Below, in pieces: positions 10,234-40,814 of a stretch of DNA of 40,814 bases; the stretch's first letter is position 1; each line of letters starts with the position of its first letter. Origin of the DNA: a virus. The notes beneath the pieces are model-generated. The model made no database searches. It was not told where the DNA came from and saw nothing but the letters and a program-made list of their open reading frames with translations. The translations under genes and the position numbers were made by a program. The stretch covers positions 1 to 40,814 of the IMG/VR virus record IMGVR_UViG_3300025889_000274; one strand, given 5' to 3'.

Positions 10234-10251
10234 CCCCCTCTTCGGAGGGGG
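10234..10251 (+). terminator. Hairpin after the capsid gene
   Basis: CCCCCTC-TTCG-GAGGGGG: a perfect 7-bp stem with a very stable TTCG loop, ten bases after the capsid stop codon. It is followed only by AAATTT, so termination is probably partial; it could also stabilise the capsid mRNA 3' end and set capsid above downstream genes. Confidence 0.7.
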
Positions 10252-10268
10252 AAATTTAAGGAGTTTTT

Positions 10269-10478
10269 ATGACTGAAGATAAAGCTAGAGCTAAAGTTAA
10301 ACCAAAAACTGTACTAACAGAAGTCGAAAAGAAAATTGCCCCTTCCGATCTTGTTTCTGTGGAAAATTATAGTAAAGATCGTGTATGTGTATCTACCGGT
10401 ATACTTATGCCTGGTGATAAAGGTGAATGTACGTTGGCCGAAGCAAATTCGTACAATAGAAAATTAAGGAGACTATAG
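10269..10478 (+). CDS. Small head-module hypothetical protein, 69 aa
   Basis: Basic N-terminus (DKARAKVKPKTVLTEVEKK) followed by a short beta-rich part (RVCVSTGILMPGDKGECTLAEA). Located directly after the capsid gene, where decoration or head-completion proteins often lie, but no family was recognised. AAGGAG upstream of the ATG is good. Its stop overlaps the GTG of the next gene. Confidence 0.65.
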   Translation: MTEDKARAKVKPKTVLTEVEKKIAPSDLVSVENYSKDRVCVSTGILMPGDKGECTLAEANSYNRKLRRL

Positions 10479-10831
10479 TGATATACCCGGATGAGGTAAT
10501 TAGAAGCAGGATTCATTACCAGGAACATACGGATACTATTACGCATGTTACAGATCAACCAACTGAAGATCTGATACTTAATCGTAATGCGGAATTACGT
10601 AAAAATCCGGGAGCTATTCGTGACCTTGGAAAAGGTACCCAAACATGGGGTCGACAATTATGTTCTATACCATTTATCATGTATGAAAAAGCGTTACGTG
10701 ATGGGTATCAGCTAAATGCTACAGACAAACAATTTCGATCAGATGAATTATACAGATATTTACGTAGTGAAGAAGGGCGTAAATGTTTAATCAATGATGA
10801 ATTACTTATTACTAAGCGGAGGACTAAATAA
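10478..10831 (+). CDS. Head-module hypothetical protein, 117 aa
   Basis: The only good start is GTG at 10478, one base into the previous stop, with AAGGAG at the right distance. It is a mixed charged protein without known motifs (QTWGRQLCSIPFIMYEKALR in the middle). It overlaps the next gene by one base. A conserved structural or assembly role is inferred only from position between capsid and adaptor. Confidence 0.7.
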   Translation: MIYPDEVIRSRIHYQEHTDTITHVTDQPTEDLILNRNAELRKNPGAIRDLGKGTQTWGRQLCSIPFIMYEKALRDGYQLNATDKQFRSDELYRYLRSEEGRKCLINDELLITKRRTK

Positions 10832-11082
10832 TGGCTGGTAAAATGGAATCAGGGTATACAGTTACTTCAGCAGACCGTAGATTGGCTCAAGCATATTGTG
10901 AAGGTATGGCTCATCGCATTCAAGGGACTGCGCTAGCTTTTCCTATTACTGATAACCCTTATTCAGACCCTGACGGTGAATTAGAAACTGCTTGGGATGC
11001 TGGGTGGAACTCAGCGAATGGTGACGCTGGTGGAGTTTTAGACCCTAAAAATTGTGCGTTAAGTGGGAACGTTTCAGCATGA
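10831..11082 (+). CDS. RMF/CrpP-like small protein, 83 aa
   Basis: The core AYCEGMAHRIQG, then NPYSDPDGELETAWDAGWNSA, matches the pattern of the ribosome-modulation-factor/CrpP-like small fold (A-Y-x-x-G, then N-P-Y, then W-x-x-G-W-x-x-A) that many phages carry. In bacteria RMF binds ribosomes; the role of phage copies is unknown, and its position among head genes hints at a virion or assembly role instead. The 3' end overlaps the next small gene by four bases (ATGA). Confidence 0.7.
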   Translation: MAGKMESGYTVTSADRRLAQAYCEGMAHRIQGTALAFPITDNPYSDPDGELETAWDAGWNSANGDAGGVLDPKNCALSGNVSA

Positions 11083-11228
11083 AGACTTTACTTATGATGA
11101 AGACACGAAGTCTTATCTCTCCTATGGTACAAAAGTTTAGCTCTCCAGTTAAACCCACTACTATTACACAAAGACGAGGCATCCGTTCAACCGGTGGATA
11201 TCGCATCTATAAGGTGTTAAACCCGTAG
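11079..11228 (+). CDS. Very small basic protein, 49 aa
   Basis: An open frame too short for usual cut-offs. It starts at an ATGA overlap with the previous gene and ends 7 bp before the adaptor gene. The 49 residues are basic (TQRRGIRSTGGYRIYKVLNP at the C-terminus) without acidic residues. Exact fit between two genes, coupling overlap and absence of another use for these 150 bases support it as real. Function unknown. Confidence 0.6.
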   Translation: MKTLLMMKTRSLISPMVQKFSSPVKPTTITQRRGIRSTGGYRIYKVLNP

Positions 11229-11235
11229 GTGATAT

Positions 11236-11853
11236 ATGAATTATACTGAAATTAAAAACGCAGCTTTAGCTTATGCTGATAAAGCTACCCACACGGAAAC
11301 ATCAGATAGTATGGATGATTTTCTTAGGGTGGTAGAGGCTCGTGTTAACCGGCATTTAAAGACTAATGATATGTCAAAACAGGCAACGTTAACGTCTTTA
11401 GATGGAAAATATTATTATGGCTTGCCTGATGATTTTAATGGTTTAAGAGGTGATCCACAAGTCCCTGGTGCTAATAACACTATCCAAACTTTTAGATTTA
11501 TGACACCAGAACAGATGAACAATATTAATCATCTTTCTAATGTTAGTGAACACTATTATACGATTATAGCAGATCAATTTCGCATCTTTCCAGATTTAGA
11601 CGCTGAAGTAATCACTATAACGTATTACCAAAGGATTGTAGCCTTAGATGGTACAAATACCTCTAATTGGCTGAGTACGGATAATCCTGATGTTTATATC
11701 TTTGGTTGTCTTGTTGAAATTGCTTCATTCAACAAAGACGCTGTTGCTAGAGAAATATGGGACGCACGATTTAAAGAAGCACTTAATGAAGTATCAATCC
11801 ATGATCAAATGATTAGATGGTCTAGTAACACAATGCAAACCAGACCTGGTTAA
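11236..11853 (+). CDS. Head-tail adaptor protein (SU10/epsilon15 type)
   Basis: A 205-aa protein with the order and residues of podovirus adaptors: a helical start (NYTEIKNAALAYADKATHTE, then FLRVVEARVNRHLKT), a beta-rich centre (YYYGLPDDFNGLRG, YYTIIADQFRIFPDL) and a helical end (EIWDARFKEALNEV). Adaptors ring the portal exit and receive the nozzle. No adaptor-like second gene was seen. The position four small genes after the capsid is usual in this group. Confidence 0.82.
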   Translation: MNYTEIKNAALAYADKATHTETSDSMDDFLRVVEARVNRHLKTNDMSKQATLTSLDGKYYYGLPDDFNGLRGDPQVPGANNTIQTFRFMTPEQMNNINHLSNVSEHYYTIIADQFRIFPDLDAEVITITYYQRIVALDGTNTSNWLSTDNPDVYIFGCLVEIASFNKDAVAREIWDARFKEALNEVSIHDQMIRWSSNTMQTRPG

Positions 11854-13306: not shown

Positions 13307-14977
13307 ATGGGTCACTATCGAGACTTAAACGCACTCGCTCTCACGCCGGAGCTACTTGCTGAAAACGCAACGGGACACAAGTGCGTTAAGCCTTCGTCAA
13401 ATTCTGGTGTCAGAATTAATTGGGCTAATCCAATTACTCGAAAGCTGGTCGGTGCGTGGTTGCTCAATGATAGAGGAGGCGCTACAGCGCGTGATTTGTT
13501 AGGCAAAAACCACGGCGCAATTTCTGGTGCGACATGGACGCCGTATGGTCTTGAGTTCGCAGAATCCGACACGAATGACGTGGGTTTAGGTACGTCGAGC
13601 GAATGGGAAGGGCATCACTCTGGCGCTATCTTTGCGCGTATTAAACCCGACGATTTCAGTTCTTCTGGCGCGGTCTTTTGTCGTGACCCTGCACATTCGG
13701 GCCGTGGGCAATCGTTTTATATAAACAGCTCGGGCAATGTAGCGTGGTCTGCGCGGTTTGCATCAACAACATACACGGCATCAACTACCGCAGCACTCAC
13801 GGCGGGAAGGTGGTCAAACGTCGCCGTCAGTTGCGCAGGACAATCTGCCGATTATCATTTTCTTGTTAATGGTAAGATTGAAACTGCTACGTTAAATACG
13901 TCTGTAGACGGTTGGTGGACAGATGAACCAGATTCGGTTAGCGCGTATGAAATCGGGCACCACAAACGTGGCGACTCAAGCCACTATTTCGACGGTGTAA
14001 TCGGCTTCGTGTATTTATTTGGCGCAGATACGGATAATCTAGGAAATCTAACCGACGCAGAACTGCTGTCATTAGACAAAGACCCGTATCAATTGTTAAT
14101 GATTGAGCCGACTTTCTGGATGCCGCAAGCGGCCGCAGGTGGTGGTACCAGTATCAATGCTACTTCAGCTAGTAGAACAAACACTGCTAATAATGCAACC
14201 GTACAAGCAGATGTTGATATTAATATTTCTGCTACATCAGCTAGTAGAACAAACACTGCTAATAATGCAACCGTACAAGCAGATGTTGATATTAATATTT
14301 CTGCCACATCAGTTAGTAGAACGAATACCGCTAATAACGCTGTTGTAAGTTCCGGTACAGACACTAATATAGCGGCTACTTCTGCAAGCAGAACAAATAC
14401 TGCTAACAATGCAACTGTACAGGCTGACGTTGATATTAATATTACGGCGACTTCTATTAGTCGTACTAATACAGCAAATAACGCGGTTGTAAGTTTAGGC
14501 ACACCAACAAACATTTCTGCCACCTCTGTTAGTAGAACTAATACAGCAAATAATGCTACTGTTGATGCCCAAATTGACATTAATATAACAGCTACTAATG
14601 CTACCAGAACTATAACACCACTTAATGCATCCGTACAAGCAGATATAGATATTAATATAACAGCAACTAGTGTATCAAGAACTAATGCTGCAAACAATGC
14701 TGTAGTTTTTCTTGGCAACAATATTATAGCACTAAATGTTGCTAGAACTAATACGGCTTACAATGCGACGGTAGACGCTCAAGTAGATGTAAATGTTGCG
14801 GCTACTTATGTGAGTAGAGGTAATACAGCATTAGCTGCAGCAATATCTTATTATGTACCAGGTTATACGATTATTTGCCCAGATAGTGATTCGTGGTCAG
14901 CAGTAACTAAAGATTCATCGTCCTGGACAGAGATTAGCGTTGATTCAAACGAAGGTAATGTAACTGATAATTGTTAA
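13307..14977 (+). CDS. Tail fibre-like protein: LamG-type domain plus 24-residue repeats
   Basis: A 556-aa chimeric protein. Residues about 45-250 look like a concanavalin/LamG jelly-roll (VGAWLLNDRGGATARDLLG, SGAIFARIKPDDFSSSGAVF, YHFLVNGKIETATLN, YFDGVIGFVYLFGADTDN). Residues about 283-510 are about nine tandem 24-residue repeats of the type ATSASRTNTANNATVQADVD, predicted beta-rich. The C-terminus (SDSWSAVTKDSSSWTEIS) is a short unique end. The DNA changes from GC-richer to AT-rich at about 14.13 kb, at a Gly-rich joint. Likely a receptor-binding or host-surface adhesion protein. Confidence 0.75.
   Translation: MGHYRDLNALALTPELLAENATGHKCVKPSSNSGVRINWANPITRKLVGAWLLNDRGGATARDLLGKNHGAISGATWTPYGLEFAESDTNDVGLGTSSEWEGHHSGAIFARIKPDDFSSSGAVFCRDPAHSGRGQSFYINSSGNVAWSARFASTTYTASTTAALTAGRWSNVAVSCAGQSADYHFLVNGKIETATLNTSVDGWWTDEPDSVSAYEIGHHKRGDSSHYFDGVIGFVYLFGADTDNLGNLTDAELLSLDKDPYQLLMIEPTFWMPQAAAGGGTSINATSASRTNTANNATVQADVDINISATSASRTNTANNATVQADVDINISATSVSRTNTANNAVVSSGTDTNIAATSASRTNTANNATVQADVDINITATSISRTNTANNAVVSLGTPTNISATSVSRTNTANNATVDAQIDINITATNATRTITPLNASVQADIDINITATSVSRTNAANNAVVFLGNNIIALNVARTNTAYNATVDAQVDVNVAATYVSRGNTALAAAISYYVPGYTIICPDSDSWSAVTKDSSSWTEISVDSNEGNVTDNC
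14159..14840 (+). repeat. 72-bp coding repeats in the fibre gene
   Basis: About nine in-frame units of 72 bp. The first two (14159-14230 and 14231-14302) differ by one base, showing a recent duplication, while later units are diverged at DNA level but keep the S-R-T-N-T-A-N-N core. Unit number is likely to vary between related phages. Confidence 0.85.
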
Positions 14978-25875: not shown

Positions 25876-25900
25876 GGGGCTCTTACGAGCCCCATTTTTT
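25876..25900 (+). terminator. Rho-independent terminator of the late operon
   Basis: GGGGCTC-TTAC-GAGCCCC (25876-25893) is followed by ATTTTTT. It ends plus-strand late transcription before the convergent ligase gene. The minus-strand reading lacks a U-run, so it works mainly in one direction. Confidence 0.92.
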
Positions 25901-26933
25901 ATATATCATCTCGCCATCTAATAGCAACACAGTGAAAAGGTATACCGTCATTAGTTAGTTCAGCATATTCACATGTGACCAACTTTCCGATATAGTCCTC
26001 TTTATTATCCAGCACATGCCTCTTTTCCATATGATTACCTGGTGCCGAAGTTTTAAAAGCATTACCATTTCTGGCCTCCAGAATCAAAATACCCCAACCT
26101 TCCTTAGAAGGTTCTATGTCTATACATTTAAACTCATCATCTTCTCTAAGCTTGATTTTAATTAAGTGAGGACTACGTTTACCAATACTGTATTTACTAG
26201 AACCTAATCTTATAATAGCCCCTTCATATCCTTGTTCTCTATACATTCTGCACAACTTATGAGGATCTGTTCCAGTTCTAAGTTTGTGTGTATTAACTAT
26301 TTTGATTTTATCTGTCACTGTAACATTGTCTTGTATAAACTTAAATCGATCTTCAAAAGACATATTCTCATTAACAACGTCGTATATATGGTATTCTAAG
26401 CGAAGTGTTTTAATTTGTCTACGTTTTGCCCAAGAAGCAATAGTCTGTAATGGTGCACCGTGGTAATACAGTTCACCATCAAATATTACCCCTTCAGGTA
26501 CATGTAAATCGTCAATAATTTCTGGTATGGTATCTATTATTTTACCTTGTCTTGAATATGCGCCTTGTCTACTTATCATACATCTATGACCGTCAAGCTT
26601 TGGTTGAGCATACCACTTATCAAATAATAAACCTTTAACACGTTTAAGTGGATGAGCTAACATCGGTGCTGGCAATCCTAACTGATTCGTAACAAACTCA
26701 CCTAACTCTTCACGAGATTCCTTAAACCCAGCATCTCGTTTCTTCCTCGCTCGCGCTTCGACGCGGAGTTTTATTTGCTCCTCTACGGATCTACCGGCCT
26801 TCCCACAAGGTACGTCTTCCGTAAAATGGCATCCGTTAGCATAAATATGGATAGTATTACCTTCACTATAGATTTTCCAAATATTTATACTGTGAACTCC
26901 ATGGCCGTATAGTGTAAGTTCATTTTTCCGCAT
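25899..26933 (-). CDS. ATP-dependent DNA ligase
   Basis: A 344-aa ligase. The adenylated lysine is in AQPKLDGHR (Lys112), followed by FDGELYY (Glu154), GYEGAIIR and HLIKIK, the ordered nucleotidyltransferase motifs. C-terminal residues about 270-344 form the OB-fold. Residues 1-65 precede the usual catalytic core and start like a WGR-type DNA-binding segment (INIWKIYSEGNTIHIYANGC). It seals nicks during phage replication and repair. Last gene of the minus-strand replication unit; GAGG upstream of the ATG. Confidence 0.92.
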   Translation of the reverse strand: MRKNELTLYGHGVHSINIWKIYSEGNTIHIYANGCHFTEDVPCGKAGRSVEEQIKLRVEARARKKRDAGFKESREELGEFVTNQLGLPAPMLAHPLKRVKGLLFDKWYAQPKLDGHRCMISRQGAYSRQGKIIDTIPEIIDDLHVPEGVIFDGELYYHGAPLQTIASWAKRRQIKTLRLEYHIYDVVNENMSFEDRFKFIQDNVTVTDKIKIVNTHKLRTGTDPHKLCRMYREQGYEGAIIRLGSSKYSIGKRSPHLIKIKLREDDEFKCIDIEPSKEGWGILILEARNGNAFKTSAPGNHMEKRHVLDNKEDYIGKLVTCEYAELTNDGIPFHCVAIRWRDDI

Positions 26934-26936
26934 GAT

Positions 26937-27407
26937 TTATCCTCTATATTGTTCGTATACAACGGTGCCGAAGTGCTTGGCACCAGGGTATGGATCTTCA
27001 TAAACAACACGCTTACATCGAGTGTTGGCTATCATCTTACTACAATGAGTACATGGTTCTGCAGTACAATAGATTGTATGAATCTTATTTACATCTGATA
27101 CTTGCATAAGAAGATTCATTTCCGCATGCACTGCGGCACATTGATCTAATCTAGTACCACTAAGTGCCGACGCACCAGAACAAGCATACGGGTAACGTAC
27201 CTGTATTGGTTGATTTGGACCAGATTGAAACGTATGTTCTTCATTACAATGCTTTTCACCACATGGTACACCGTTATATCCTGTACCTATAACTAATCCG
27301 TTCTTATCTAGTGCCAAGGCGCCGACGGCACGACGTAAACAAGTAGTCCTCATGGCTATATCGCTAACGATACGCATGTATAATTCATCTTTGGATATTC
27401 TACTCAT
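26937..27407 (-). CDS. dCMP deaminase
   Basis: A 156-aa zinc deaminase. The catalytic HAE motif is VHAEMNLL (His94, Glu96) and the zinc cysteines are EPCTHC (Cys119, Cys122), as in dCMP deaminases. A second metal site (Cys49, Cys54, HTF) is also suggested. It converts dCMP to dUMP for dTMP synthesis and drains unmodified dCMP. It lies just downstream of the structured element at 27460-27550, outside the modification cassette proper. GGAG before the ATG is good. No thymidylate synthase of the ThyA type is present, so the dUMP would be handled by the host. Confidence 0.92.
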   Translation of the reverse strand: MSRISKDELYMRIVSDIAMRTTCLRRAVGALALDKNGLVIGTGYNGVPCGEKHCNEEHTFQSGPNQPIQVRYPYACSGASALSGTRLDQCAAVHAEMNLLMQVSDVNKIHTIYCTAEPCTHCSKMIANTRCKRVVYEDPYPGAKHFGTVVYEQYRG

Positions 27408-27459: not shown

Positions 27460-27550
27460 CCGGAGCTATCTAGAACTATCTGAACATTCCCTGGGCTAGT
27501 AGCCCGTAGGCTAATATAAGTTCAATTTTAACATCCTAGGATAGCTCCGG
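27460..27550 (-). ncRNA. Structured element, copy A
   Basis: A 91-nt intergenic element with an 11-bp perfect closing stem (CCGGAGCTATC at 27460-27470 with 27540-27550), an inner stem TGAAC/GTTCA (27481-27485 with 27520-27524) and, on the minus strand, either AGCC-UACG-GGCU (a very stable UNCG loop) or GGGCT-ACT-AGCCC, which exclude each other. Copy B is at 32212-32300. It starts about 6 bases after the stop of the 27556-28320 gene. Not a simple terminator because no U-run follows. Confidence 0.7.
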
Positions 27551-27555
27551 TTAGC

Positions 27556-28320
27556 TCAGGATTTTAGCCACTTACCAAAATCTGATTTAAAGGTAAGACT
27601 TAACAAATCGTGTACATCTGTGATAGGTGGATATTCTACTTCTAAAAAACCATCACCTTCGCATGCGGCAACCTCATTCATATATGGCCAATAGTTTTCA
27701 TATACGTGTAAACTATCAGTACTAAAAATGAATTGGCCTTTCGGCACGCCTAATTCATGCGACATCATCTCATGTAACCACCAAAAACATGGCCAATCGA
27801 TACTAGAACCTATGGCTAAATCGCTTGACCGCATATCAGCGTGCATGATTAACTCACCTTGTACTATACGAAAAGTAATCCCTTTAGTACATACTACATC
27901 CTTATTATCTGCAAACATATGTTCATGACCCAACATCGGTATATAAGCACGACGGCTGTCTGGGTCTTCTATCAGGGTTTTTACCACTCTATCAAAATCT
28001 GTAAGACCATCGGCGTCCTTTCTGATAAACCAATAATACCCATAGTTAGAAAATATTCTACCATCAGGTTGTACTATGGTTTTCCATATACTTGCCTCAT
28101 CACAGATAGAGTTATCGTATGGGTCTCCTTTTAGATACCACATAAATTCTTTCTTGATATAGGCAAGATTATCCCTTGGTCTAAAAGTAAAACTATGAAA
28201 TGGTTGGTTTACAGTAATGGAATAAAAAGGGATTTCTTTAATCAACAAATCCCTTGGTTTAGATATTTCGCCCCATGATGCTACATCACTAAAAGCTTGA
28301 ATCACTGAATTAAATTCCAT
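27556..28320 (-). CDS. dCMP hydroxymethylase-type thymidylate-synthase homologue
   Basis: A 254-aa member of the thymidylate synthase superfamily. It has the folate/nucleotide frame motifs EFMWYLKGD (Glu58), the catalytic cysteine in VVCTKG (Cys144), RSSD (Arg164, Asp167) and the LHVYENYW end. Where ThyA has Asn177, this protein has Asp175 (SSID), the change that in T4 gp42 and related enzymes selects cytosine nucleotides. So it most likely makes 5-hydroxymethyl-dCMP from dCMP with methylene-THF rather than dTMP. The kinase gene is immediately upstream, four bases away. GGAG supports the start. Confidence 0.85.
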   Translation of the reverse strand: MEFNSVIQAFSDVASWGEISKPRDLLIKEIPFYSITVNQPFHSFTFRPRDNLAYIKKEFMWYLKGDPYDNSICDEASIWKTIVQPDGRIFSNYGYYWFIRKDADGLTDFDRVVKTLIEDPDSRRAYIPMLGHEHMFADNKDVVCTKGITFRIVQGELIMHADMRSSDLAIGSSIDWPCFWWLHEMMSHELGVPKGQFIFSTDSLHVYENYWPYMNEVAACEGDGFLEVEYPPITDVHDLLSLTFKSDFGKWLKS

Positions 28321-28323
28321 AAT

Positions 28324-28815
28324 CTACTCCTGTACCCGCATATTTATCTCGTTTAACAAGTCATCCATAGGCATATCTGTATAATCATAGTGGATATGGT
28401 CTATAGACGTCATCACAGAATGATAATTAGCTTTGATAATGTCTCTATTTTCAGTTATATGTTTGATATGCTCATCTGTATCATATTCTTTAATTTCATG
28501 AACTTCATTAGGAACTGTAGTCCATATAAATATACAGGAACTTTCTAAGTATGAAAGATCTCTTAAAAGCATAGCACGATGTAATTCATTCATATCAAGT
28601 TCATAACACAATCTAGATATACATGTAACTCTATCAAATATAGCTAACGAATGTTTGGCAATCAAACATTGATACCGCGACATTTCTTCTGCAATATCAT
28701 TAGACTTAGGCTTACCACCTATAACATGGATACCTAAATTATAAAATCTACCTAATTGTTTTGCTAAAGTAGATTTACCGCATCCGTCAAATCCTTCTAT
28801 TATTATGCTTTTCAT
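28324..28815 (-). CDS. P-loop deoxynucleotide kinase
   Basis: A 163-aa kinase with an N-terminal P-loop GFDGCGKST (residues 8-16), a typical DR-type signature in IFDRVTCISR (about residue 60) and a small all-in-one fold of the thymidylate/deoxynucleoside monophosphate kinase type. Between the hydroxymethylase and the pyrophosphatase, it is well placed to phosphorylate 5-hydroxymethyl-dCMP to the diphosphate, the job of T4 gene 1. Substrate is inferred from neighbours. It overlaps the upstream gene by four bases. Confidence 0.85.
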   Translation of the reverse strand: MKSIIIEGFDGCGKSTLAKQLGRFYNLGIHVIGGKPKSNDIAEEMSRYQCLIAKHSLAIFDRVTCISRLCYELDMNELHRAMLLRDLSYLESSCIFIWTTVPNEVHEIKEYDTDEHIKHITENRDIIKANYHSVMTSIDHIHYDYTDMPMDDLLNEINMRVQE

Positions 28816-29237
28816 GAGTCATAGTCCATATTCTGAGTTTCTATGGCGCTTAAGATATTTGCGATACGAGTTTCCGGGGATACCCATCCATCTGGTTTAA
28901 CTGCATCTGCAGCTTCACCATTTCCTCGTTTTGTATTGACACCCAATCGCTTACTCATGTTAGCATCATGGACAGAAGAAAATAGTTTTTCATACACACC
29001 ATGGTCTATCCCCATTTTATATAAAACACCATGAGCAAAATACATGAGGTCAATGACGGCATCAACTGTACCTATAAAATCATCATTTTTATACGCCTCT
29101 AAAAACTCATTACATTCCTCAATAAGGCTTGCATAAGATATGTCAGCCTCCGCTTGTGATAATGTAGATATTGGTCTTTTACCTATACCCAATATTTCAC
29201 GATTAAATTCAACCACCTGAAGGTATTGTTTAGACAT
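28812..29237 (-). CDS. MazG-like all-alpha NTP pyrophosphatase
   Basis: 141 aa from the ATG at 29237, chosen because AAGGAG lies six bases upstream; the longer 29264 frame overlaps the carbamoyltransferase end. It has the metal-binding helices of the all-alpha NTP-PPase superfamily: SLIEECNEFLEAYKN followed by DFIGTVDAVIDLMYFAHG (E-E-x-x-E then D-x-x-x-D). In a hydroxymethylcytosine pathway an enzyme of this superfamily removes dCTP (T4 gp56), and this is the favoured role here. House-cleaning of other nucleotides or of ppGpp is the alternative. Confidence 0.82.
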   Translation of the reverse strand: MSKQYLQVVEFNREILGIGKRPISTLSQAEADISYASLIEECNEFLEAYKNDDFIGTVDAVIDLMYFAHGVLYKMGIDHGVYEKLFSSVHDANMSKRLGVNTKRGNGEAADAVKPDGWVSPETRIANILSAIETQNMDYDS

Positions 29238-29247
29238 GTGTTTCTCC

Positions 29248-30834
29248 TTATTTAATTTCTTCATGATAATTAGTTAATATGAGATTATGAATTATTTTCC
29301 AATTATCGTGTTTTTGTTGATAATCTATACACTCTATTAAATCTTTATTGCTAAAGATAATAGGTACACCATGTATATTAAAACTGGTATTAATAAGTAT
29401 ACCAAACTCTTTAAGGGCAGGTCCCATGATAGATAACGTTTCTTTGTCATCGTCTGGTACTACCTGAGGCCTACCAGTGTAACCATCTCGTGTAGGTAAT
29501 CCGTGTGCCGCACCTCTATAATCATGTTTAATTTGGAAATATTCCTGAGCTAAAACCATATAGTGATTGCTTTTAACAACACGATCCATGTCATCAAACA
29601 ACGTATATGCTACTTCTTCTGATACTACTGGAGCCATCGGCATTACAGTATCACGTCCGTTACATTTATTGATATAGTCGACATTTGCAGTCACAGGTAA
29701 AGCTATGGTAGATGTACGACACAATGCCCTAGCGCCGAATTCCATATTGCCCCAGACTATGTTTACTATTTTAGCTTCTTTCAATAATTCCAATAACCTA
29801 TTAGCCATATCTGATTTGTTATTAAACCACTCAGTACGATCTCTATTAAAGGTTGGTTTTATATCTCTAAAACCCCAACATAAATTTTTAGGCATTTGCC
29901 AATCTGGATTATCTCTCTTATATAATCCTAATGGAGCACCTTGGTCACCACATAAAGGCATAACAGATAACATTCCAGGAATAGCCTCTAATACTTTGTA
30001 GTTTGCTTTAACATTCATAAACACACCACCCACCAATATAACGTTATCTATATTATATTTTCTGATTATGGCAACCAATATACGTTCAAGGGCTGTCTGT
30101 ACCACATGAGCTACCAAGTGTTTCATCCTTTCACATGGTGCCAAAATTTTATCCCACATTAGTTGTGTTTCAACCAGGGCTTCAATCTTGTATAGTGGAT
30201 CAGTATCATTAAATAACCGTTTATTATTTATGTGATTCGTGAATTTTTGCAATATATCTAAAACTATAGGTCCAAGATATTGCTTATCTACATTAGAGCA
30301 TGAGTTTTCATAACCTAATAACTTATACTCATCTTCATTCATTTTCATACCAAGATTGGCTACTGCATACTGATACATTAAACCAAGAGATGCATCATAT
30401 CCGTATACTCGATTAACTAACTCATCTTGTGGATTATAAATGGATATAGTCTCACCAAAATTACCGAATCCATCAGCAACTATAGTCCATGATGGAGGCA
30501 TTTCATCTCCGACAAAAGCTTTAGCACTCATCATATGACAATCATGGTGCGTGAAATTTTTATCCACGGTTACTATATTTTTATGTGTAGGCAATAGTTT
30601 ACGATTAAAGTGCTTTAACTTCATATTATCAAGATTACCAAAAGGATCCCAATGAGATATGTAAATACTATCATATTCTTCGATACCTATTTGACGTATA
30701 GCATTAATTGGAAATGCACTATCAGATTTAATTCGTGTTAATCTCTCCTCTTCATAACCATTAATAATACGGCCGTCCACAATAGCGACGGCCGATGAAT
30801 TATGTCCCAATGACAGTAATAAATCTGTACTCAT
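29248..30834 (-). CDS. NodU/TobZ/CmcH-type carbamoyltransferase
   Basis: A full-length 528-aa protein. The N-terminal Kae1-like domain opens with SLGHNSSAVAIVDG, has the metal-binding HHDCH (residues 96-100) and VADGFGNFGE (Asp121), and GGVFMNVKAN (269-278). The C-terminal YrdC-like domain carries MEFGARALCRTST and, near the end, INTSFNIHGVPI. Such enzymes transfer a carbamoyl group from carbamoyl phosphate, via carbamoyl-AMP, to a hydroxyl. Beside a cytosine hydroxymethylase, the obvious acceptor is the 5-hydroxymethyl group on DNA or nucleotide. Confidence 0.9.
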   Translation of the reverse strand: MSTDLLLSLGHNSSAVAIVDGRIINGYEEERLTRIKSDSAFPINAIRQIGIEEYDSIYISHWDPFGNLDNMKLKHFNRKLLPTHKNIVTVDKNFTHHDCHMMSAKAFVGDEMPPSWTIVADGFGNFGETISIYNPQDELVNRVYGYDASLGLMYQYAVANLGMKMNEDEYKLLGYENSCSNVDKQYLGPIVLDILQKFTNHINNKRLFNDTDPLYKIEALVETQLMWDKILAPCERMKHLVAHVVQTALERILVAIIRKYNIDNVILVGGVFMNVKANYKVLEAIPGMLSVMPLCGDQGAPLGLYKRDNPDWQMPKNLCWGFRDIKPTFNRDRTEWFNNKSDMANRLLELLKEAKIVNIVWGNMEFGARALCRTSTIALPVTANVDYINKCNGRDTVMPMAPVVSEEVAYTLFDDMDRVVKSNHYMVLAQEYFQIKHDYRGAAHGLPTRDGYTGRPQVVPDDDKETLSIMGPALKEFGILINTSFNIHGVPIIFSNKDLIECIDYQQKHDNWKIIHNLILTNYHEEIK

Positions 30835-30837
30835 GGA

Positions 30838-31662
30838 TTAATCCCAACTTTCCAGAATATTGTCTACCTCTTCTGATGATACTTTAGAAGGTTTCTCAGC
30901 CTCAGGTTCAATTACTTCTACCGATGGTAATGCTTGCTTATTGCCTCCACTAGGTAATGCTGGTGTAGTAGATGAGAAGTTATCCCATTCTTTTTCTTCA
31001 GCAATTTTTAGTGAGGTTTTAACCATGTCTTTATTTAGTATGCCCAATAATTCGAACGTTAATTTAGGATAATCAGCATCATCATCAAAACCTAAACGAG
31101 ATATTACTACCGAAGGAGTTGTGATCCCGGCCTTCTTAAGATCCGTACTATAATTATTTAATGGCTTAAGACTTGATACGGTAACATTAAGTAACCAGTA
31201 TGGAGGCCGTTCAGACTCCTTCATATCTTTAGCTTTGACAATATATAAGCGCTTACTATCTCGGCACGCCTTCGATTTCTTACCGCCTATACTAATGGCT
31301 GAACCAAATTTGTTATTAGGGCATGTAGCACATGTTTGACTTACAGGATTACTAACCCAAGAATCTGGAGATATACCATCAGATGAGCTACAGTTTGGTG
31401 GATCTGAACTATTTGAGTCATACACTCCTTCATAATATGTTTTGGCTGTACCATGTGTAGGCATCATACCTACTATAACACAGTCAAGATTATCTTTCAC
31501 AACTTCAACTTCTTCACCTTCAGACTTGAAGCGGAACTTGCCACCTTTAAGTGATATTCTAGGTACTGACATACCACCACTCATCATATCATCAGTTTTA
31601 GGTGCCGATGTGTTTTCCATCATATCTTTTAAATAATCTGGGATTTGTATATCTTTGGACAT
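30838..31662 (-). CDS. Probable ssDNA-binding/replication protein, 274 aa
   Basis: Beta-rich middle (VVKDNLDCVIVGMMPTHGTA, PPYWLLNVTVSSLKPLNNYS), a Cys-rich probable zinc knuckle (CATCPNNKF then KACRDSKR) and an acidic tail (VSSEEVDNILESWD). An OB-like core with an acidic C-terminus is typical of phage SSBs, which use the tail to bind partner proteins. Located between the replication and modification genes. AGGAG upstream. Direct family recognition is lacking, so the function is inferred. Confidence 0.6.
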   Translation of the reverse strand: MSKDIQIPDYLKDMMENTSAPKTDDMMSGGMSVPRISLKGGKFRFKSEGEEVEVVKDNLDCVIVGMMPTHGTAKTYYEGVYDSNSSDPPNCSSSDGISPDSWVSNPVSQTCATCPNNKFGSAISIGGKKSKACRDSKRLYIVKAKDMKESERPPYWLLNVTVSSLKPLNNYSTDLKKAGITTPSVVISRLGFDDDADYPKLTFELLGILNKDMVKTSLKIAEEKEWDNFSSTTPALPSGGNKQALPSVEVIEPEAEKPSKVSSEEVDNILESWD

Positions 31663-31665
31663 TTT

Positions 31666-32079
31666 TTACTCTCCTTTAGAGGACTTGGTTGGTTTACGTA
31701 CTTGAATAACATCTTCTCGTACGTAATCTATTCCCATTTCAGCGGCTGATATACCGCTATCCATGAGTTCTTTAACAGCCAATTTAGATATATGGCTGGT
31801 AAATATCTGCGTGTTGCCAGTCTTTAGTACCCACTCATCAACTATTTCTCTGGCACCTGGTGCTATTCGAGCATAATCTTTTTCAGTACGGAAAGCTGTA
31901 CCGGCCGCGGTCTTGAATGAGTCTACACCTGTCTCATTAGATATCTCTAATATTTGGGCTTCAAGATCCGCTAATTCCGCTTTACAACCATCTTCAAATG
32001 ACTTGAAATCACTTCGTTTTTCATTTAGAGTATCGCGTATACTAATATACTCATTAACTAAATCAACAATTTTAGACAT
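31666..32079 (-). CDS. Gp157-like hypothetical protein, 137 aa
   Basis: An N-terminal coiled coil (ISIRDTLNEKRSDFKSFEDG, then ELADLEAQILEISNET) followed by a small beta-rich end with the pattern SFKTAAGTAFRTEKDYARIA. That resembles the phage Gp157-type layout, often linked to recombination or SSB genes. It opens the cassette behind its own promoter, with AAGGAG before the ATG. The function is not known. Confidence 0.6.
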   Translation of the reverse strand: MSKIVDLVNEYISIRDTLNEKRSDFKSFEDGCKAELADLEAQILEISNETGVDSFKTAAGTAFRTEKDYARIAPGAREIVDEWVLKTGNTQIFTSHISKLAVKELMDSGISAAEMGIDYVREDVIQVRKPTKSSKGE

Positions 32080-32133: not shown

Positions 32134-32211
32134 TATCTTTACATAAAGTACTTAGTAACACGTTATCTCCTGTAAAATATAATATAATAAGTACTTAACA
32201 CACTGCTATAT

Positions 32212-32300
32212 TAGAGCTAACCAGACTTATCCAGGACATCTCTGGGCTAGTAGCCCGTAGGCTAATATAGGTCCAATTTTAACATCCTAGGATAGCTCTA
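32212..32300 (-). ncRNA. Structured element, copy B
   Basis: Shares a long identical core with copy A at 27460-27550 (for example GGGCTAGTAGCCCGTAGG). The closing stem keeps pairing although its bases differ: two C-G/G-C pairs of copy A are T-A/A-T here, and the inner stem changes an A-T pair to G-C. It begins six bases after the stop of the helicase gene and precedes the promoter at 32104-32133. Compensatory changes argue for a functional folded RNA. Confidence 0.72.
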
Positions 32301-32305
32301 GTAAA

Positions 32306-40663: not shown

Positions 40664-40723
40664 CTGAAATGCCTCGATAATAACGGGCTTTTTCTGTAGC
40701 TATAGTTTGTCATCTCTCTATCT

Positions 40724-40765
40724 CCTGTTTAAAGAACATCATCGCCTGTTTAAAGAACATCATCG
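40724..40765. repeat. 21-bp tandem repeat, two copies at the right end
   Basis: Two perfect copies (40724-40744, 40745-40765) of the same 21-bp unit found three times at 3-65. Both arrays are preceded by CT and followed by the same 49-bp unique sequence, so they are the same locus seen twice with different copy number. Confidence 0.9.
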
Positions 40766-40814
40766 CCTGTGTATTGTAGCAACTGGATTCATATGCTCGT
40801 TATCATGCCGCCTT
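40724..40814. repeat. Terminal redundancy, identical to positions 24-114
   Basis: The last 91 bp are identical to positions 24-114. Either the contig is a circular assembly with overlapping ends, or the virion DNA has a short direct terminal repeat. The seam passes through the 21-bp repeat array, where short-read assembly often stops. Sequence alone cannot separate the two possibilities. Confidence 0.9.

Follow-up and report, generated by a model that had tools for sequence, protein, structure and literature searches.

A divergent phage gene module predicted to make 5-carbamoyloxymethylcytosine DNA

Layout of the locus

The stretch of DNA analysed here, referred to throughout as the window, is an IMG/VR virus contig of 40,814 bases. 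A 95-nt repeat, 99% identical and containing a 21-nt tandem unit, lies at both ends (1-114 and 40720-40814), so the genome, at ~40.7 kb, is probably near-complete. Its structural genes include those for terminase, portal (phrog_1216), scaffold and major head protein, and its replication genes, found on the minus strand, encode primase, DNA polymerase, exonuclease, a resolvase-like nuclease and helicase. A region of higher GC carries repeats of 72-nt spacing (24-aa units) at 14144-14719 on the plus strand, housed in a 556-aa open reading frame (13307-14977) for which no PHROG match was found.

A sequence-only reading of the window had singled out four co-directional genes, and open reading frames occur at exactly the borders that it gave, all on the minus strand. 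These encode a carbamoyltransferase (CT; 29248-30834, 528 aa, phrog_1601), a PRA-PH/MazG-like pyrophosphohydrolase (28812-29264, 150 aa, PF01503), a P-loop kinase (28324-28815, 163 aa, matching phrog_761, thymidylate kinase, at 6e-10) and a thymidylate synthase (TS) homologue (27556-28320, 254 aa, PF00303, phrog_160). Adjacent genes of this set overlap or are 3 nt apart, a spacing as in one transcription unit. The four genes are present as described, but the unit is larger than the four-gene extent first proposed. Downstream, also on the minus strand, are a dCMP deaminase (26937-27407; PF00383, phrog_174), which adjoins the TS gene in relatives, and, at the end of the module, an ATP-dependent DNA ligase (25899-26933; PF01068, phrog_114), whose position is conserved. 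Upstream of the CT, two further minus-strand genes keep their position in relatives: that of a conserved 274-aa protein directly upstream (30838-31662) and that of a conserved 137-aa protein (31666-32079; phrog_13900), which is the first gene of the unit and keeps this position in 20 of the 64 related loci.

The carbamoyltransferase and its clade

The window CT matches each of the two Pfam domains that make up NodU/TobZ enzymes (PF02543 and PF16861), in keeping with its earlier description as a complete enzyme of this type. It has in common with the TobZ, NodU and GdmN O-carbamoyltransferases the two-domain architecture and the conserved His, Asp and Arg residues; it differs from them in having Thr for Arg423, and its predicted acceptor is a nucleobase hydroxyl. 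A 5-hydroxymethylcytosine carbamoyltransferase of sewage phage origin was purified in the MetaGPA study (Yang et al. 2021, eLife, PMC8670742), so the report of phage 5hmC carbamoylation to which the sequence-only reading referred is a real one. The MetaGPA enzyme is described as carbamoylating 5hmdC in DNA, 5hmC in RNA and the free triphosphates, using carbamoyl phosphate and ATP as donors and giving 5cmdC as the product, with a preference for single strands and with no activity on 5mdCTP and 5hmdUTP (PMC8670742). The sequence of the purified enzyme was taken from that paper for comparison, and the window CT is 39% identical to it over ~545-547 columns (E 4e-110), across both Pfam domains. A maximum-likelihood tree groups 61 CTs, including the window CT and the purified enzyme, in one clade with support of 100/100. 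All seven outgroup sequences, namely three cyanophage-type CTs, those of XacN1 and RAS14, and two from genome contigs, fall outside it. The sister of the window CT in this tree comes from another IMG/VR contig, L007, and is 53% identical.

According to the MetaGPA paper, most CTs of modified contigs form a separate tree branch, and the residues that best separate them are those at TobZ W408, G421 and R423 (PMC8670742). The corresponding residues of the window CT, located by means of the surrounding shared motif, are I359, C372 and T374, and the purified enzyme has identical letters there. Thr is found at the R423 position in all 61 clade CTs, and Arg in 7 of the 7 outgroup CTs. Thr for TobZ Arg423 in MEFGPRAL-C/G-x-T is a one-residue signature separating the clade CTs from the others in the examined set. 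On these sequence grounds, the window CT is very probably a 5-hydroxymethylcytosine O-carbamoyltransferase.

A thymidylate synthase homologue of predicted dCMP type

The TS homologue was aligned with E. coli ThyA, T4 gp42, SPO1 gp29 and relatives. Cys144, Thr145 and Asp175 of the window protein fall at ThyA C146, H147 and N177, and this alignment agrees with the placing of Asp175 at the Asn177 site in the sequence-only reading. The same triad is found in T4 gp42 as Cys148, Thr149 and Asp179, the last of which pairs with Asp175, and Asn occupies the 177 position in both ThyA and SPO1 gp29, a dUMP hydroxymethylase. The best solved-structure match is a CMP 5-hydroxymethylase (5b6d), and the T4 dCMP hydroxymethylase is among the top matches. 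The active-site residues and these best solved relatives together predict dCMP as the substrate. Positions 147 and 177 of ThyA are also those reported to differ most between modified and unmodified contigs (PMC8670742).

Conservation of the gene set among relatives

No match was returned by a DNA-level search of the phage collection or by a single-sequence scan of IMG/VR. An alignment-based scan succeeded: CT relatives turned up in 54 IMG/VR loci and 5 genome contigs, and 5 phage records bring the total to 64 loci. A TS homologue is linked to the CT in 57 of them. As for the other seven, four end beside the CT (L030, L043, L049 and L060), two hold outgroup CTs (L064 and L065), and L016 alone has no TS in the 7 kb to either side of the CT. 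The linked TS copies, which number 61 after removal of one duplicate record, have Asp at ThyA-177 without exception and Thr at 147 in 58 cases. The TS genes played no part in finding the loci, and Asp177 is therefore an independent check, although the patterns of the CT search did favour this CT clade.

The order polymerase, helicase, 137-aa protein, 274-aa protein, CT, PRA-PH, kinase, TS, dCMP deaminase and ligase is found in about 20 loci, including Xanthomonas phage Xp15, Acinetobacter phages HHU4, Effie and MD-2021a, and about 15 IMG/VR contigs. Because this order recurs so often, the gene set is not a chance association. Some clade members have no PRA-PH or kinase homologue near the CT, which implies that genes for the pyrophosphatase and kinase steps do not always accompany it. 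In the case of Bacteroides phage BF503P1 (L005), two TS homologues lie beside the CT (10456-11262 and 13335-14015), both with Asp177. Two TS homologues occur as well in several IMG/VR loci (L035, L036, L039 and L041).

Kinase, pyrophosphatase and the 274-aa protein

A confident model of the kinase (pLDDT 94.7) has YorR, thymidylate kinases and deoxynucleoside kinases as its closest fold matches. G8, G13, K14 and R62 of this P-loop protein are conserved, and no T4 gp1 structure was among the fold or sequence matches listed for it. From its place in the pathway, this P-loop deoxynucleotide kinase probably acts on hm-dCMP. The nearest solved relatives of the pyrophosphatase are 3nl9 and DR2231, and its metal-binding acids (E49/E50/E53 and D68/D72) are invariant in 20 sequences. 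DR2231, the nearest named one, is presumably a dUTP enzyme, and this counts against a dCTP role. Nevertheless, the pathway suggests that the all-alpha NTP pyrophosphohydrolase probably removes dCTP/dUTP. There is precedent in MazZ of phage S-2L, a MazG-like enzyme that feeds a base-replacement pathway (PMC8342488).

Homologues of the 274-aa protein are found in 22 of the 64 related loci, nearly all immediately upstream of the CT. Cys91, Cys111, Cys114 and Cys133 are invariant in 19 sequences, and the acidic tail of the protein carries a Trp close to its end. The model is of medium confidence (pLDDT 69), and a fold search with it gave no significant match. The protein may, tentatively, be considered a candidate zinc-containing single-strand DNA-binding protein.

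Predicted pathway and competing readings

We consider it likely, with a probability of roughly 0.88, that the module makes 5-carbamoyloxymethylcytosine DNA. The sequence-only reading had arrived at carbamoylated hydroxymethylcytosine, and the identity of the CT to the purified enzyme and their common clade, the dCMP-type TS residues, the uniform Asp177 of the linked TS copies and the conserved linkage all agree with it. In the proposed scheme, the TS homologue would use methylene-tetrahydrofolate to place a one-carbon unit on C5 of dCMP, with water adding to give 5-hydroxymethyl-dCMP, which the P-loop kinase together with host enzymes would raise to the triphosphate. The MazG-like pyrophosphatase would cut dCTP, and perhaps dUTP too, back to the monophosphate, depriving the polymerase of plain dCTP and feeding the hydroxymethylase, and the dCMP deaminase would divert surplus dCMP to dTMP synthesis. 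The CT would form carbamoyl-adenylate from carbamoyl phosphate and ATP and then pass the carbamoyl group to the 5-hydroxymethyl oxygen, the acceptor being either hm-dCTP or newly made single-stranded DNA. In a variant that we regard as rather unlikely, carbamoylation would precede polymerisation, with the kinase and pyrophosphatase tuned to hydroxymethyl- or carbamoyl-dCMP and the polymerase using carbamoyloxymethyl-dCTP. If true, this would be a fully pre-replicative base-replacement pathway, encoded in one short operon in many phage lineages.

Carbamoylated cytosine should block most cytosine-reading restriction enzymes, and we infer that the window phage may replace cytosine fully and be protected from restriction. 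Such protection is proposed, rather than tested, in the MetaGPA paper (PMC8670742). GATC is rarer in the window than expected (100 versus a Markov estimate of 181), the strongest deficit of the 4-letter palindromes, and this counts against full protection, because a fully protected genome would not need such avoidance. Avoidance of 6-letter palindromes does not discriminate, with values of 0.93 for those with C and 0.96 for those without.

The strongest competing explanation concerns the choice between hydroxymethyl and methyl. The TS homologue could be an Xp12-like dCMP methylase, Xp12 being the known 5mC phage, in which case the DNA would contain 5-methylcytosine and the CT would act on something else. 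ThyA N177D yields 5mdCMP (PMC8670742), so Asp177 alone is also compatible with dCMP methylation, and this counts against a firm hydroxymethylase call. The CT clade, however, includes an enzyme that is specific for 5-hydroxymethylated cytosine and does not act on 5mdCTP, the best solved relatives of the TS homologue include the CMP and T4 dCMP hydroxymethylases, and TS and CT are almost always linked, and a methyl group offers a carbamoyltransferase no acceptor. A methylase is improbable on this evidence, and the chief reason for favouring water addition, with a hydroxymethyl product, is that the linked CT requires a hydroxyl.

A second competing explanation is that the module serves chiefly in dNTP salvage, with modification confined to free nucleotides or reaching just part of the cytosine. 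It draws on the ordinary dNTP-pool character of the dCMP deaminase, kinase and pyrophosphatase genes, as well as on the remaining under-representation of GATC. This reading is nonetheless very improbable, as no salvage role is known for a CT of the MetaGPA clade and as such contigs came out of the MetaGPA enzymatic selection for modified cytosine (PMC8670742). Decoration of a sugar or surface polysaccharide, which context suggests for the NodU-like genes of cyanophages and giant phages and which fits the sugar-nucleotide or glycosyltransferase genes adjoining other phage CTs, is scarcely credible for the window CT and was rejected on the tree and the gene context, since those sugar-context CTs are not members of the clade and retain Arg at R423, and the window CT lies between replication and dNTP genes, with no recognised sugar genes nearby.

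Comparison with described systems

The reading of the module as a source of carbamoylated hydroxymethylcytosine places it beside the MetaGPA system, in which TS, PRA-PH and dCMP deaminase are the usual neighbours of the CT on modified contigs and DNA ligase is also associated (PMC8670742). The clade of the CT, a TS with Asp177, and PRA-PH, dCMP deaminase and DNA ligase domains are common to that system and the window. The two differ in that the CTs are only 39% identical and the phages are different, and the parts of that paper considered here make no mention of a linked P-loop kinase. Because MetaGPA had already reported the CT and its usual neighbour domains, the window is, on good support, a divergent further example of the system described in 2021 and not a new system. 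Within the literature searched, the term 5-carbamoyloxymethylcytosine was found only in PMC8670742. The residue, tree and neighbourhood tests confirm the 2021 carbamoyl-cytosine system as a module conserved across many phage lineages.

Xp15 and the Acinetobacter phages have the gene order of the window, but their CTs are only 35-38% identical to that of the window. A literature search for the bases of Xp15 DNA found no report. Xp15, HHU4 and Effie are isolated phages and offer virion DNA for analysis. The glucosyl-hydroxymethylcytosine pathway of T4 (gp42, gp1, gp56 and beta-gt) has a dCMP hydroxymethylase with the same active-site residues as the window TS, and the two pathways follow the same plan, in which a kinase works alongside an enzyme removing dCTP and the hydroxyl is capped. 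The T4 cap is glucose, whereas that predicted for the window is carbamoyl. The window kinase and pyrophosphatase are likened to gp1 and gp56 by function, and the T4 proteins would be functional analogues only, as none of the listed sequence or fold matches connects the window pair with them.

An intergenic hairpin

The minus strand of the window has two copies of a hairpin element of ~95 nt, one between the TS and dCMP deaminase genes (27460-27552) and the other in the intergenic space immediately upstream of the 137-aa gene (32210-32304). A third copy lies in the TS-deaminase gap of the sister contig L007 (about 10245-10335). An Rfam search with the intergenic hairpin gave no family match. 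One further match to the hairpin pattern, outside L007, lacks module genes in its surroundings and looks fortuitous. As a guess, the element might be an RNA processing site or a regulatory hairpin bounding the operon. Its folding is better than that of shuffled sequences, with z of -5.3 and -3.0 for the window copies and -4.6 for that of L007. Judged by eye across the basal stems of the three copies, about four pairs appear to be maintained by changes in both strands of the stem, and the core, TATWAGCCTACGGGCTA, is conserved.
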